A stretch of DNA of 64,000 nucleotides, taken from Bacteroidota bacterium. GTDB taxonomy: Bacteria > Bacteroidota > Bacteroidia > Chitinophagales > LD1. A program made the position numbers and the translations under genes. Positions 32,232 to 39,000 of this stretch are shown one piece after another. Location of the stretch: NCBI GenBank assembly GCA_947475165.1, contig CANJLD010000001.1, positions 124,001 to 188,000 of the forward strand, in the 5' to 3' direction. The notes below the pieces were generated by a model. It did not search any database, was not told the origin of the DNA, and was given only the letters and a program-made list of their open reading frames with translations. Each line of letters opens with the position of its first letter. The stretch's first letter is position 1.

Positions 32232-32920
32232 TGAAGCAGAAAATTGTAGTGCTTACCGGTGCAGGAATTAGTGCCGAGAGTGGCATTAAAACTTTTCGCG
32301 ATTCGAACGGTTTGTGGGAAGAGCACCGCGTGGAAGATGTGGCTTCACCGGAAGGCTGGGCGCGCGATAAAAACTTAGTGCTTGACTTTTACAATCAACG
32401 AAGAAGGCAACTGCTGCAATGCCAACCCAACCGCGCGCATCTTGCTTTGGCTGAGCTTGAAGAAAAATATGAGGTGACTATAGTTACACAGAATGTAGAT
32501 GACTTGCATGAGCGCGGTGGTTCAACAAATATTATTCATCTGCATGGCGAGTTACTGAAGATGCGAAGTTCGCTGGATGAAGATTTAGTGTATGATTGCA
32601 CCGGTGATATTTTGTTGGGCGATAAATGCGAAAGAGGCTCACAGCTTCGCCCTTACATTGTATGGTTTGGCGAAGCAGTGCCGAAGATTGAAGATGCTGC
32701 ACAACTGGTTCGCCATGCCGATATCCTTATTGTTATTGGCACTTCGCTCGTTGTTTATCCCGCAGCAGGGCTCATCAATTATTCAAAATACGAAATTCCT
32801 AAATGGTTGATTGACCCGCATGATATGCAGTTGCCGCGTATTCCTAATTTGAAATTTATAAATAAGAAGGCAACTGTTGGGGTTGATTACTTAGTTAAAC
32901 TTCTGCTTGCCGATGCTTAA
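32231..32920 (+). CDS. Sir2-family NAD-dependent protein deacylase
   Basis: 229 residues. NAD-binding motifs are clear: TGAGISAESGIKTFRDSNGLWE, TQNVDDLHERGG, and HLHGE with the catalytic histidine; later RPYIVWFGE and GTSLVVYPAAG. Only two cysteines lie in the small domain (YDCTG and DKCERG), not the four of the classical zinc site; from memory this reduced form is common in Bacteroidota sirtuins. It removes acyl groups from lysines. It is translationally coupled to the upstream NlpC/P60 gene and overlaps menC by 8 nt. Confidence 0.92.
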   Translation: MKQKIVVLTGAGISAESGIKTFRDSNGLWEEHRVEDVASPEGWARDKNLVLDFYNQRRRQLLQCQPNRAHLALAELEEKYEVTIVTQNVDDLHERGGSTNIIHLHGELLKMRSSLDEDLVYDCTGDILLGDKCERGSQLRPYIVWFGEAVPKIEDAAQLVRHADILIVIGTSLVVYPAAGLINYSKYEIPKWLIDPHDMQLPRIPNLKFINKKATVGVDYLVKLLLADA

Positions 32921-33935
32921 AGCTTCTTATCAAAAATACAAACTGCATTTTACACAACCGGTGCTTACATCGCGCGGGGCTATGCCGGTTAAGAACGGTT
33001 ATTTCATTTCGGTAAACAACGGCACCACCACCGGTGTAGGCGAGTGTAGTTTTATTGAGGGCTTGAGTGTTGATGATATACAGAATTACGAAAGTACCTT
33101 GCGCACGCTCTGCAATTTTATAACCAACGAACATCCCGACCTGAAGTTGTTTCCGTCTATGCGCTTTGGTTTAGAGATGGCCATGCTCGATTTAGAGACC
33201 GGTGGCAAAAAAATTCTTTTTGAAAGTTATTTCACCAAAGGTAAAAAGCAGATACCGGTGAACGGACTGGTGTGGATGGGCAAACATGATTTTATGTTGC
33301 AGCAGATTAAGCAGAAGTTAAACGATGGTTTTAACTGCATTAAAATAAAAGTAGGTGCCATTAATTTTGATGAAGAGGTTTCGCTCTTAAATTTTATCCG
33401 CAAAAAGTTTCCAGCAGATTTGGTAGAGATTCGCCTCGATGCTAACGGTGCTTTTGCTTTCAGCGAAGTGTTTAAGAAGTTGGATACGCTTGCGCAGTTT
33501 CAGATTCACTCTATTGAGCAACCCATTAAACACGGACAAATTGAGTTTATGAAAAACGTGTGCGCCCATTCGCCCATACCGGTTGCGCTGGATGAAGAAT
33601 TGATTGGCGTTTACGGCACTGTGCAGGACGATATTCTGGATATGATTAAACCCGCATACATTATTCTTAAACCAAGTTTGCTGGGTGGCTTTAAGGTGTG
33701 CGATGAATGGATTGCCAAAGCCGAAGCGCGCAACATGAAGTGGTGGGCAACATCGGCACTGGAAACAAACATTGGTTTGAATGCTATTGCGCAATGGGTG
33801 TTTACTAAAAAGAACCCGATGGTGCAGGGGCTGGGCACCGGTTCGCTTTATTCCGATAATATCTCCTCTCCTCTTTATATCAGTAAGGGAACACTGGGGT
33901 ATAATCCGGCATTAGTTTGGGAGGAGAATTTCTGA
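32913..33935 (+). CDS. menC: o-Succinylbenzoate synthase (enolase superfamily)
   Basis: 340 residues from the ATG at 32913; a TTG at 32907 would add two. The barrel has the enolase-superfamily catalytic pattern: KIKVGA (KxK), RLDANGAF (Asp ligand), SIEQP (Glu), LDEELIG (Asp) and the late lysine in ILKPSLLGGF. MenC dehydrates SHCHC to o-succinylbenzoate in menaquinone synthesis. The identification as MenC rather than a dipeptide epimerase or muconate cycloisomerase rests on the next gene, menE. It overlaps the sir2 gene by 8 nt. A 21-bp palindrome follows. Confidence 0.88.
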   Translation: MLKASYQKYKLHFTQPVLTSRGAMPVKNGYFISVNNGTTTGVGECSFIEGLSVDDIQNYESTLRTLCNFITNEHPDLKLFPSMRFGLEMAMLDLETGGKKILFESYFTKGKKQIPVNGLVWMGKHDFMLQQIKQKLNDGFNCIKIKVGAINFDEEVSLLNFIRKKFPADLVEIRLDANGAFAFSEVFKKLDTLAQFQIHSIEQPIKHGQIEFMKNVCAHSPIPVALDEELIGVYGTVQDDILDMIKPAYIILKPSLLGGFKVCDEWIAKAEARNMKWWATSALETNIGLNAIAQWVFTKKNPMVQGLGTGSLYSDNISSPLYISKGTLGYNPALVWEENF

Positions 33936-33947
33936 CTTTAAATCAAC

Positions 33948-33999
33948 AGCCACGAATTTCACGAATTAATACTGAAAATAATTCGTGAAATTCGTGGCT
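33948..33999. repeat. 21-bp perfect palindrome (hairpin) between menC and menE
   Basis: Bases 33948-33968 pair perfectly with 33979-33999 around a 10-nt loop. The arms contain CACGAATTT-type words. It may terminate the upstream transcript, or be a dispersed palindromic repeat. It abuts the -33 TTG of the proposed menE promoter. Confidence 0.8.
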
Positions 34000-34033: not shown

Positions 34034-35254
34034 ATGTTTTGGATTCAGTTTTCTTCTCTTACCGAAAAAGAACTTGTAGAAATTGCGGCACAAACACTAC
34101 AAACAGAACTGCCCGATTGGGAGAAAAACATTTGGCAGTTTGTGAGCGATTGGTTTAATCCTTCTATACCTTCAATTAAAGTATTTACCTCAGGCTCTAC
34201 CGGTGCGCCTAAGCAGATTGAACATACGAAACAAGCCATGCTAAACAGTGCTCAAATGACTTGTGAGACATTACAACTGCAAAAAGGCGATAATGCTTTG
34301 CTCTGCTTACCGGTTACCAAAATTGCCGGTATGATGATGGTAGTGCGAAGCCTTCACGCAGGGCTTAATCTTTATTGCATAGAACCTTCTGCCACTCCGC
34401 TAAAACAATTAACCGGTGACATACAATTTGCTCTTGCTGCCTTCACACCAATGCAATTGCACAGTGCCACTAAAGACTATCCGCAATTTCTGCAAGCCGA
34501 AGCCATTCAAAAAATTATTCTGGGTGGCGAGCGTGTTAGTGCCGAAGTGCTGGATATTGTGCGCAGGTGGAATAATGATGTTTACGCCACCTTCGGCATG
34601 ACAGAAACCATTAGTCACATTGCCCTAAAAAAACTGAACGGTGCAAACGTAGATGCTCACTTTAAAGTATTGCAGGGCATTAAAATATCTACCGGTGAAG
34701 AAAACCGCCTGATTATTGAAGCACCGGAACTGGGGCAGCCGCATTTACTAACTAACGATATTGTTCGCATTGTCATGCCGAGGAACGAGGCATCTTGTAT
34801 TTCTCCTGCCAATGAAATACAAGATTTCTCACTTCGCAAAGCCTTCGTTCGAAATGACAAAACCCATCTTCCTAACACCTTTGGAGATAATACCAACAAC
34901 AGCAATCAGGAATTTGACTGGTTAGGCAGAACCGACAATGTGATTAACACCGGGGGCGTAAAAATTCATCCCGAAGAATTAGAACAACTGCTGCAACCGC
35001 ATATTCAGCCTGCGTATTTTATAGGTGCAGTGCCCGATGAGCGCACCGGTGATAAACTTGTACTGGCAATAGAAATGACGGCACTATCCGAAAGCGATAA
35101 GCAGGCACTAAAGCAAGCCTTTGAAACCTTCCCTAAGCTGCAACGCCCTAAAGCGGTCCTGCTTTTTAATCAGTTTGTGCGCACCTCTAACGGTAAGATT
35201 AACCGGAAAGAAACCATGCAAAGCACCCATGAAGTAGTTATGCTGGCAGAATAG
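34034..35254 (+). CDS. menE: o-Succinylbenzoate-CoA ligase (AMP-binding enzyme) carrying an in-frame repeat insertion
   Basis: 406 residues. ANL-superfamily motifs are present in order: FTSGSTGAPK P-loop (51-60), ATFGMTE (185-191), DWLGRTDNVINTGGVKIHPEELE (from 295) and the C-terminal lysine in SNGKINRKE. The enzyme activates o-succinylbenzoate for menaquinone synthesis, the step after MenC. Residues ~246-276 (MPRNEASCIS..., ending FVRNDK) do not resemble the family; they are the translation of an ~89-bp palindromic repeat (34771-34859) that recurs at 35971-36058. The insertion lies between a beta strand of the core domain and the DxxGRxD hinge and keeps the frame, so the protein may still work. 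A short terminator hairpin overlaps the stop. Confidence 0.9.
   Translation: MFWIQFSSLTEKELVEIAAQTLQTELPDWEKNIWQFVSDWFNPSIPSIKVFTSGSTGAPKQIEHTKQAMLNSAQMTCETLQLQKGDNALLCLPVTKIAGMMMVVRSLHAGLNLYCIEPSATPLKQLTGDIQFALAAFTPMQLHSATKDYPQFLQAEAIQKIILGGERVSAEVLDIVRRWNNDVYATFGMTETISHIALKKLNGANVDAHFKVLQGIKISTGEENRLIIEAPELGQPHLLTNDIVRIVMPRNEASCISPANEIQDFSLRKAFVRNDKTHLPNTFGDNTNNSNQEFDWLGRTDNVINTGGVKIHPEELEQLLQPHIQPAYFIGAVPDERTGDKLVLAIEMTALSESDKQALKQAFETFPKLQRPKAVLLFNQFVRTSNGKINRKETMQSTHEVVMLAE
34771..34859. mobile_element. Palindromic repeat element (copy 1) inserted in menE
   Basis: About 89 bp, beginning TGTCATGCCGAGGAACGAGG and ending with TTCGTTCGAAATGACA. The two ends and internal GTATTT / AAATAC arms are inverted repeats, so the whole can fold. 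Copy 2 lies at 35971-36058 with the same ends and a diverged centre. It looks like a non-autonomous, REP- or MITE-like element; no transposase is in the window. Confidence 0.75.
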
Positions 35255-35289: not shown

Positions 35290-35490
35290 TTTTAGTTCAA
35301 ATTGCAATAATGAACTAAAACCCATATAAGGATTATAAAATCCTCTAACAGAATTACTAAATTCTATGTCAGGAATACAAAATCCTATTATAGCATTTTG
35401 TATTCCTGACATAGAATTTTAATATCTTTTAATAATATTTTATAATCCTTAAACAGTAGATTAAAATCTTTATTAAAAATTTTAATCTAC
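35290..35490. repeat. Cluster of perfect hairpins with 11-nt loops
   Basis: Three perfect hairpins: stem 10 bp (35290-35299/35311-35320), stem 25 bp (35359-35383/35395-35419) and stem 12 bp (35456-35467/35479-35490). Every loop is 11 nt. Their centres (35305, 35389, 35473) are exactly 84 nt apart. In addition, 35328-35341 and 35437-35450 are 14-nt perfect complements centred on the same point as the middle hairpin, so the whole block can fold as one structure. The block is AT-rich and lies between menE and a small orphan gene. Confidence 0.75.
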
Positions 35491-35543
35491 TACTTTAAAA
35501 TTTCGTTCTTCTTATATAATTTCGTATTCCTTACACAAGTATT

Positions 35544-35949
35544 ATGGGAAAACGAACCGTAAAAGCGAAGCTGAATACCAATAAACCCGACACCTTTCTG
35601 AAGCTCTGCGAAGTATAACAATACCCTTGGAGCCACCAGTCCGTTTGCCGATGGGGAGTTTGTAAACATGAAGGACTATGCCGATAAAGTAAGCCGCGCC
35701 GGGCAAAAACGCGAAGAGGCACTGGAGCATTACGCCATTGCCGAAGCAGCGATGTTCGAAAGCCGCAAAATTATAGGCAGGGCACCGGGGCAATCAAGCA
35801 ATACAGAGGGCACTTTATTTAACCTTACTGCCAGTCTTAAAAAAATTCTGCTGGTGCTTAACCGCACAAACCCTGAAGCACTTAGTTTGTGGGGCTTTGA
35901 TGTAGTAGTGGGCATAGCTAAGAATCCCGGTCGCAGAAAGAAGAAATAA
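35544..35949 (+). pseudogene. Frameshifted paralog of the small orphan protein
   Basis: From the ATG at 35544 the frame reads MGKRTVKAKLNTNKPDTF and stops at 35616-35618 after 24 codons. In the next frame (from about 35611) it continues YNNTLGATSPFADGEF and on to the stop at 35947-35949. Joined, this gives ~134 residues that align along their length with the intact protein at 23409-23825 (KTVRVPLP..., LGASSPLND, INTEGTLYY, GFDVVIG, basic tail). One inserted base or two deleted bases near 35605-35615 explain the break. Because the part downstream is undecayed, a recent mutation, sequencing error or programmed shift are all possible. An internal ATG at 35668 could express the C-terminal 93 residues. 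Confidence 0.75.
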
Positions 35950-35970
35950 ATAGGTTTTACTACAAAGAAT

Positions 35971-36058
35971 TGTCATGCCGAGGAACGAGGCATCTTGTAT
36001 TTGATTACAAAGAAAATACAAGATACCTCACTACGCAAAGCCTTCGTTCGGTATGACA
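35971..36058. mobile_element. Palindromic repeat element (copy 2), intergenic
   Basis: 88 bp with the same start (TGTCATGCCGAGGAACGAGG) and near-identical inverted end as the copy inside menE. It sits between the frameshifted orphan gene and the end of the convergent pyc gene, where it could also act as a bidirectional terminator. Confidence 0.75.
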
Positions 36059-36091: not shown

Positions 36092-39000
36092 TTAAAAACT
36101 CACCACACAATCATCATGCTCTACCATTACTCCGGCAGTCAGGTGAACTTTCTTAACCGTACCGGCAACCGGTGCGGTGATAGTTGATTCCATCTTCATG
36201 GCTTCTATAACAAAGAGGGGCTGGTTTTTAGAAACATTGTCGCCCTCGTTTACATATACATTGATTAGTTTACCCTGTAACGGTGCGCCAATCTCACCGG
36301 TACCGGATGCCTTGTAGTGTTCCAGTTTCTGCACTTTAATTGTCCGGTCGCGAACCTGCACTGAGCGTGTTTGTCCGTTAATTTTGAAGAATACATCGCG
36401 CATACCATCTTCATTCGGCTCGCTCATATACATAAAGCGGATGAGCAGGTTCTTACCGGGCTCAAGCGTAACAATGATTTCTTCGTTGGGTTTCATAGGA
36501 TAATAAAACGAAGGCGTTGGAAGCATCGAAATATCACCAAAGGCTTTCTTGAACTGGTAGTATTCATCAAACACTTTCGGATACATTTTCATCGAGAGAA
36601 AATCTTCCAGCGTTTGCTTGTCGTCATATTTATTTCTGAAAGCCGAAAGCTCGCGGTCGAAATCCGTAGCACCCAAATGCTTGTTCGGCTTATCGGTATA
36701 AGGCAATTCATCTTTCAGAATTATCTTCTGTAAATCTGCCGGAAACCCACCGTAAGGCTGTCCTAAATCTCCGCGAAACAATTGCTTCACCGAATCTGGA
36801 AACGAAAGCGTATCACCTTTCTTAAAAATATCTTCTGGTGTAAGCCCGTTCGAAGTCATAAACAAAGCCATATCACCAACAACTTTCGATGAAGGCGTAA
36901 CTTTTACCACATCACCGAAGAGTTGGTTCACCACTTCGTAGTTATGCTTAATGGTTTCAAATTTATCTTCCAGCCCCAATGAGCGAGCCTGTGGCAATAA
37001 ATTAGAATACTGCCCACCGGGTATTTCGTGCGCATACACTTCGGCAGTACCGGCTTTCAGTTCGCTTTCGAAAGGATAATAATACTCGCGCACCACTTCA
37101 AAATAATTCGAATAAGCATTCAGCGATTTTAAATCAACCGGATTCTCACGCTCATGCCCCTGCATCATCGCTACAATAGAATTAAAGTTCGGTTGCGAAG
37201 TCAATCCACTCATAGAAGCCAACGCCACATCAACAGCATCCACACCGGCTTCAATAGCTTTAAGGTAAGTAGCCGTTTGAATAGAAGAAGTATCGTGAGT
37301 ATGCAGGTGAATAGGAATGGTGATGTGACGCTTCAATGCGCCAATCAGTTGTTGCGCAGCATAAGGTTTCAGCAGGCCCGCCATATCTTTTATGCAAAGA
37401 ATATGCGCCCCCTCTCCTTCCAGTTGTTTCGCCAGCTCCACATAATATTTCAGGCTGAACTTCTGTCTGTCCGGATTGGTAATGTCACCGGTGTAACAAA
37501 TACAGGCTTCGGCAATCGAGTTGGTTTTTTCGCGCACCGTTTTAATACTCATCTTCATGCCCTCCACCCAGTTAAGCGAATCGAAAATGCGGAAGATGTC
37601 GATGCCGTTCTCAGCACTCTTCTCAATAAATTTGGCAACCAGATTATCGGGATAAGCCGCATAGCCCACTGCATTGCTTCCGCGGAAAAGCATTTGCAAA
37701 AGAATATTCGGCACCGCTTTGCGCAGCAACTGCAAACGCTCCCACGGGTCTTCGTGTAGAAAACGCATACACACATCAAACGTAGCACCGCCCCATACTT
37801 CCATAGAAAATACCTCGGGGTGGTTCTTCGCAAAACCCGATGCTACAGCCAGCATATCGTTATTGCGAAGACGCGTGGCAAACAATGATTGATGCGCATC
37901 GCGGAAAGTAGTATCGGTGTAATGAATCTTTTTGTCTGACGCCAAACGTTTAATAAATTCTTCTCTGCCTAACTCATTCAGTAAATCTTTTGAGCCTTTA
38001 GGAAACTCATTGCCTATTGCATATTGCTTATTCACAACCGGCACCACCGGTGTGCGGAATTTCCGGTCAGCATCAAAAGCCTTTATATCCGGGTGACCAT
38101 TCACTTTCAATTCAGCCAGATACTTTACCAGCTTAGTTCCTCTGTCCTTATCATGTCCCCATTTAGGAATCAACAACTGCGGATTCTTAGGAATAAAACC
38201 AACGGTAGCCTTACCGGTTTGAAATTCCTCATTCTCCATCACATTCACCAGAAAGGGAATGTTTGTTTTAACCCCGCGAATACGGAACTCCTGCAAGGTT
38301 CTATCCATTCGCTTGGTAGCACCTTTCAAAGTCCGGCTCCAGGCCGAAACCTTTACGAGCATCGAATCGAAGAAGGGAGAAATCTTTACACCGCTGTAAG
38401 AGCTGCCTTCATCTAAGCGTATACCAAAGCCACCTGCATTGCGGTAAGCTACTATAGTCCCATAGTCCGGTTTAAAATCATTCTCAGGGTCCTCGGTAGT
38501 AACCCGGCATTGTATGGCAAAGCCGTTGCACTTCACATCATCCTGCGAGTGCAGAAATATTTGCGAGTGCGTCAACTCACAACCCGATGCAATTAAAATT
38601 TGAGAGCGCACAATATCAATACCGGTAATCTCCTCGGTAATAGTATGCTCCACCTGTATGCGCGGATTTACTTCTATAAAGAAAATATTCTCGTCTTTAT
38701 CTACCAGAAACTCCACCGTTCCGGCATTATTGTATTGAACATGTTTAGCAATAGCTAGGGCATAGCCAAAAAGCTTTTCGCGCGTTTCCTGTTTCAGAAT
38801 ACTCGGAGCAACTTCAATCACCTTCTGAAATCTGCGTTGCACACTGCAATCGCGCTCGTAGAGGTGAACAATGTTGCCGTAGTTATCGCCCAGCAGCTGC
38901 ACTTCAATATGCTTGGGGTCTTCTACAAACTTTTCAATAAACACCGTATCATCACCGAAAGATTTCTTCGCTTCGTTCTTTGCTTCGGTAAACGAATTAC

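Follow-up and report, generated by a model that had tools for sequence, protein, structure and literature searches.

That dispersed palindromic repeats can become protein segments is well established for Rickettsia, with fewer documented cases elsewhere. Rickettsia palindromic elements (RPEs) sit in frame at exposed positions, and those of the RPE-4, RPE-6 and RPE-7 families have ATGAC ends (PMC3767692). The family present at the same site differs among orthologs (PMC3767692; reviewed in PMC10969869), and in the first R. conorii report nearly half of the copies were genic (as reviewed in PMC10969869). A further class, the REPs carrying a CGTC or TGTC tag, was defined by Di Nocera et al. in 2013 and reported in five phyla including Bacteroidetes (PMC3733652). 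Dimers of these REPs are mostly intergenic, some are intragenic and code for 20-30 residues, and no dedicated transposase was found for them (PMC3733652).

Here we describe an element within the menE gene of a bacterium that presumably belongs to the Bacteroidota. Like the RPEs (especially RPE-4, RPE-6 and RPE-7) and the palindromic elements of Wolbachia, it is a short dispersed palindrome found in frame inside unrelated conserved genes, its insertion sites are exposed, and different families occupy the same site in orthologs. It is a multi-copy repeat, with about 20 full-length copies and inverted arms, and both in menE and in a GH3 glycosidase gene the in-frame insertion is absent from the orthologs and falls at an exposed, structurally tolerant site, a disordered loop in the models. 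An ATGAC end is the sole sequence feature in common with RPE-4, RPE-6 and RPE-7, a likeness drawn from the published description; the sequence is different as far as seen, and about 2 of some 20 copies are genic here, unlike the proportion given for R. conorii. In terms of mechanism, the element appears to work as an RPE does. The kind is already known from RPEs and intragenic REP dimers; what is new is its extent in one genus, with several families at the same loops. Taken together, the evidence suggests that the MenE segment is very probably one member of a family of mobile, non-coding palindromes, inserted in frame and read through, with the protein fold left intact.

Results

A 90-nt element within the menE reading frame

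The analysed stretch of DNA, called the window, is 64 kb long. The relevant features are as follows.

32907-33935, plus strand: menC (o-succinylbenzoate synthase), same pathway as menE and just upstream of it (Pfam MenC_N and MR_MLE_C; NCBIfam TIGR01927)
34034-35254, plus strand: menE (o-succinylbenzoate-CoA ligase), 406 aa, with the in-frame insert (ORF; Pfam AMP-binding; NCBIfam TIGR01923)
34770-34859, plus strand: palindromic element of 90 nt within menE, read as I-VMPRNEASCISPANEIQDFSLRKAFVRND-K, residues 246-276 (from sequence and orthologs)
34775-34793, plus strand: left hairpin, ATGCC (34775-34779) / GGCAT (34789-34793), with a TGTC tag on its 5' side (from sequence and compensatory changes)
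34794-34823, plus strand: central inverted repeat, CTTGTATT (34794-34801) / AATACAAG (34816-34823), with a variable spacer
34824-34855, plus strand: right hairpin, ATTTC (34824-34828) / GAAAT (34851-34855), followed by GACA (supported by T-A/C-G and T-A/A-T compensatory exchanges among the copies)
34892-34905, plus strand: ACCAACAACAGCAA, probable leftover arm of an older, different palindromic repeat in the menE loop (by presumed homology)
35970-36058, plus strand: second copy in the window, 89 nt, non-coding, between an ORF ending at 35949 and a minus-strand pyruvate-carboxylase-like gene ending at 36092

The best NCBIfam match of the menE ORF is TIGR01923 menE, with an E value of 1.3e-39, a match that falls short of the model's cut-off, and it is the only MenE-like match in its own genome. 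The closest solved relative of the product is 4gs5, and protein relatives were found in Chryseolinea and Balneicella, on which the placing of the organism in the Bacteroidota is based. The neighbouring menC matches TIGR01927 menC best, just below the cut-off of that model. Other repeats lie beside the gene: a perfect 21-bp inverted repeat with a 10-nt loop between menC and menE (33948-33999; AGCCACGAATTTCACGAATTA / TAATTCGTGAAATTCGTGGCT), perhaps a further palindromic repeat or an element of terminator type, and, just downstream of menE (35327-35502), two adjacent AT-rich imperfect palindromes whose arms of 62 nt and 29 nt are 81% and 79% complementary, respectively. Sub-threshold Rfam matches of other hairpins of the region to miRNA families were judged to be due to chance.

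The first base of the insert is the second base of codon 246 and its last base is the first base of codon 276, and the menE frame remains open through it to the C-terminal domain, with no stop codon in the frame entered. The loop reads TNDIVRI-VMPRNEASCISPANEIQDFSLRKAFVRND-KTHLPNTFGDNTNNSNQEFDWLGR, and when the 90 nt are removed in silico the inferred empty site, GTT CGC A|AA ACC CAT, restores a clean frame. In the window the two copies share a strand, are separated by 1.2 kb and are 86% identical; their first 34 nt are identical and their far ends agree at 88% over 48 nt. A 20-nt core probe, allowing up to 3 mismatches, found 2 sites in the 64-kb window, both of them in the elements, against a chance expectation of 0.01. 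The two copies have unrelated flanks: comparison of 60 nt per side gave identities of 15% and 28%.

These data refine the sequence-only reading of this DNA. It had recognised both copies, placing the one in menE at 34771-34859 (about 89 bp) and the one in non-coding DNA at 35971-36058; each of them begins one base earlier, so that the exact extents are 34770-34859 (90 nt) and 35970-36058 (89 nt). The common start that it described as 20 bp long is real and runs for 34 nt without mismatch, and its assignment of the element to residues ~246-276, with the frame kept to the C-terminal domain, agrees with the codon boundaries and the open frame. Its term "palindromic" is justified for the inverted arms and not for a single palindrome, the element being rather two inverted hairpin repeats, a REP-like dimer.

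Two hairpins rather than one

Aligned copies have the form TTGTC-ATGCC-GAGGAACGA-GGCAT-CTTGTATT, a variable spacer, and AATACAAG-ATnYC-TCACTtCGCAAAGCCTTCGTTC-GRnAT-GACA, that is, two unlike hairpin halves in inverted order; some half copies also occur. In general form the inverted hairpins read TGTC-ATnCC...GGnAT-CTTGTATT, and TGTC-AT is present in nearly all copies. Energy folding favours one long hairpin, and a strong hairpin is possible for the menE element as single-stranded DNA (z -4.6). However, in the aligned copies the single long hairpin has 86.4% of cells paired and no compensatory change, whereas the two local 5-bp hairpins have 96.6% of cells paired and 4 pairs changed on both sides. 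The covariation score of the local hairpins was reached by 0 of 500 shuffles, a count that serves as a guide and not as a probability because the copies are related. One long hairpin was consequently rejected as the conserved structure; the presence of compensatory changes in the local hairpins, and their absence from the long one, is the reason why the single hairpin seems to be what is conserved, as it is in REP dimers.

The TGTC tag, the A-T at the first two stem positions (nearly all copies) and the predominance of inverted dimers of unlike halves are features in common with CGTC/TGTC REPs. Unlike the CGTC REPs, whose stems are 8-9 bp and loops 4-5 nt long, the element has 5-bp stems and loops of ~9 and 22 nt, and it has no CCA tail. 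On these sequence features it is not filed in CGTC families 1-4, since stem and loop lengths differ.

A dispersed family seen in one genus among 299 genomes of the order

A genome-wide search for the element, which had been suggested as a check on the original observation, found about 20 full-length copies in its own genome (G000; 3.88 Mb in 45 contigs; covariance model), together with half copies and weaker or diverged ones. With a 93-nt query, ~16 nearly complete copies and numerous halves were located in the same genome, spread over many contigs, and family copies occur there in both orientations. Copies on contigs 12 and 15 (L002 and L006) match the menE copy at 92%, more closely than does its neighbour at 35970, a separate and more divergent family member. 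Copies elsewhere in the genome are 76 to 109 nt long, and about one third of copies have a length divisible by 3 and are open in the frame of the menE insert. Nearly all copies other than those in menE and the GH3 gene are intergenic or at ORF edges. Among 299 genomes of the order, a strict left-half pattern occurred 15 times in the own genome, twice in G016 and once in G001, and was absent from all others, so that among the genomes searched it was found in this genus alone. This distribution suggests that the family expanded in the lineage of the window genome.

Three further in-frame candidates were not retained. In an ORF of G015 (C28, L136; a TonB-dependent receptor by eye) and at G000 C1:239048 (L018) the element lies upstream of the likely true start, and the copy at C19:4926 (L010) was set aside as ambiguous at the N-terminus. 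The copy at L018 (G000 C1:239048-239172) overlaps the 5' end of an ORF for an OstA/LptA-like protein (by eye), and that at L010 (G000 C19:4925-5018) overlaps the 5' end of an ORF for an unnamed protein; both may contribute the start codon, by way of an ATGACA or GTCATG end. The half copies L022 and L023 have ~70 nt around the half copy in common, and no transposase was noticed alongside the half copies L021-L023.

MenE orthologs lack the segment

Of 29 MenE orthologs aligned, 28 cover the site, and all 28 lack the element segment, including the two closest (G001 and G017); no ortholog from a genome without the repeat has it, a comparison that the sequence-only reading had also called for. The protein runs directly from ...TNDVV to ...FxWLGR in 27 of them, the exception being G001, which has another palindrome there. 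No target duplication, a mark of classical MITEs, is visible at the inferred menE site, for which the empty site was taken from ~67%-identical proteins, so that a duplication of 1-2 bp is possible. The MenE parts before and after the insert show 67-72% identity and a dN/dS of ~0.1 against G001 and G017, values that are rough because dS is near saturation. In the AlphaFold model (mean pLDDT 88), residues 254-287 have a pLDDT below 50 and lie between strands 235-247 and 293-299; the insert is thus modelled as a disordered loop of the β-hairpin preceding the A8-like motif. A predicted tryptic peptide of the insert is NEASCISPANEIQDFSLR.

A second genic copy in a GH3 glycosidase

A second in-frame copy is found at G000 C9:43876-43965, inside a 761-codon GH3 enzyme with Pfam GH3 N, GH3 C and Fn3-like domains. 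It is exactly 90 nt long and is read in the same phase as in menE, giving FSG-FVMPRNEASGIGTSNQIQDSSLRKASVRND-NNIEILT where relatives have FSG-TAVEILT. The insert forms a disordered loop (412-439) in the structure model, and no target duplication was seen at the inferred site, the empty site being taken from 83%-identical proteins. Since about one third of copies are open in frame at a length divisible by 3, the menE and GH3 copies look like the survivors expected after selection.

Other palindromic families at the same loops

The GH3 loop of G016 holds a different repeat, GTCACCCTGAGCTTGTCGAAGGGT...CTTCGACAAGCTCAACATGAC, with the peptide VTLSLSKG...LRQAQHD; the literature searched gave no match for LRQAQHD. 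Members of this family also lie at a C-terminal site of the GH3 enzymes of G015 and G016, as well as in MnmG of G004 (L163, G004 C8, 322-2283), where an in-frame palindrome of this family, NVTLSLSKGKEEMLRQAQHD, lies in a loop of variable length and is absent from 15 MnmG relatives. The GH3 enzymes of G001, G015 and G016 have a further palindromic insert in common (GTCCCGCT/AGCGGGAC, CCTCCGC/GCGGAGG). The insert common to these three orthologs (L074, L081 and L073 for G001, G015 and G016) ends in HLR[PS]AQSSGTPPPAED, is encoded by two small hairpins and lies at a GH3 site where other relatives have no insert.

The MenE loop of G001 carries a third palindrome, GTTGTTGttagtaaggtgACCAACAACAGCAA, which has ~10 dispersed matches in the window's genome. 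Its right arm is identical to ACCAACAACAGCAA at 34892-34905, 32 nt past the new element, which suggests that the MenE loop had already received an older palindrome when G000 and G001 diverged, and gained the present element afterwards. Two families in two species are found at the MenE loop and likewise at the GH3 loop, besides the further GH3 sites and MnmG. That in this genus the same few protein loops are entered in frame again and again, by several unrelated palindromic families, is in our judgement about as likely as not.

Discussion

The sequence-only reading, in which a dispersed repeat had become an in-frame MenE segment, is borne out by the ~20 copies, the 28 orthologs without the segment and the unlike flanks. 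It had itself raised the alternative that only two copies existed, through a simple segmental duplication. Their distance of 1.2 kb, common strand and 34 identical starting nucleotides would suit one local event without any mobile element. However, the family numbers about 20 copies scattered over many contigs in either orientation, the menE copy resembles copies elsewhere more than it does its neighbour, and the two sets of flanks are unrelated; local duplication is refuted by the genome-wide copies and unlike flanks, and we regard it as extremely improbable. The hairpin strength of the element might also suggest that the insert is removed from the mRNA or bypassed by ribosomes and so never reaches the protein, yet no intron was matched when the region was scanned against Rfam, and bypass is not needed because the insert keeps the frame without a stop codon; we attach almost no probability to it.

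The addition of ~30 residues to an enzyme could mean that menE was inactivated and is a young pseudogene, still open by chance. Conservation of MenE to an equal degree on both sides of the insert argues against this, as do the full-length open frame, the position next to menC of the only MenE-like match in the genome, and the modelling of the insert as a loop outside the fold, and such inactivation is very unlikely. Alternatively, the segment might not simply be neutral and tolerated but have a role in MenE (regulation, binding or stability) for which it is retained, and the same peptide frame in the GH3 enzyme and the recurrence of different palindromes at the same loops are in favour of this. 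Nevertheless, the segment is disordered in both models, the element insert occurs in one genome only, the host proteins are unrelated and no conserved site is touched, and we consider a dedicated function very unlikely.

The preferred reading, insertion of a mobile repeat followed by read-through, would proceed as follows. Entering as one piece of 90 nt, apparently with no duplication of the target, a non-coding dimer of two inverted REP-like hairpins would have settled in the loop of the menE β-hairpin that lies after the TND motif (A7-like) and before the WLGRxDNVINxGG motif (A8-like). As its length is divisible by 3 and there is no stop codon in the frame entered, it would be read through, adding about 30 disordered residues and leaving the fold and the downstream domain intact. 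Selection would remove the copies that break genes, and for this reason surviving copies would be intergenic or in frame in loops. The effect of the menE insert is presumably near-neutral, and menE with its insert is presumably expressed.

Movement would occur in trans, probably as single-stranded hairpins, and insertions would be tolerated in exposed loops if length and phase permit. We infer that such hairpins are mobilised by a Y1/REP-associated tyrosine transposase (RAYT). The element resembles the REPINs mobilised by RAYT transposases in being a ~90-nt pair of inverted hairpin repeats in a genome with one RAYT gene (L071, G000 C1; NCBIfam, 110 bits vs a cut-off of 80). Unlike REPINs, it has no GTAG tag, and unlike in REPIN/RAYT systems, this gene is flanked not by the menE element but by an inverted pair of another REP, GTTCGAGATG...CATCTCGAAC (1198-1241 and 1861-1906). 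Moreover, 17 Y1 transposase genes were found across seven genomes of the genus, none of them with a copy of the element nearby. With other repeats at its flanks and no element copy near these genes, the RAYT of this genome is not supported as a proven mobiliser, and its being the mobiliser at all is possible but rather doubtful. In L022 the GTTCGAGATG...CATCTCGAAC REP also adjoins a half copy of the element.

In menE the case is clean: many orthologs have the empty site, an independent second instance is known in the same frame, and other families have inserted in parallel at the same loops. The case makes the seeding of new protein segments by repeats, and the sites where these land, directly testable by simple assays on core enzymes, and it explains recurrent odd peptides (VMPRNEAS...VRND, VTLSLSKG...LRQAQHD) as translated repeats and not domains. 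If several families do enter the same loops repeatedly, repeat insertion would be a process that keeps generating new protein loops beyond the Rickettsiales, and permissive loops would be its hotspots, menE holding one repeat beside the relic of another.
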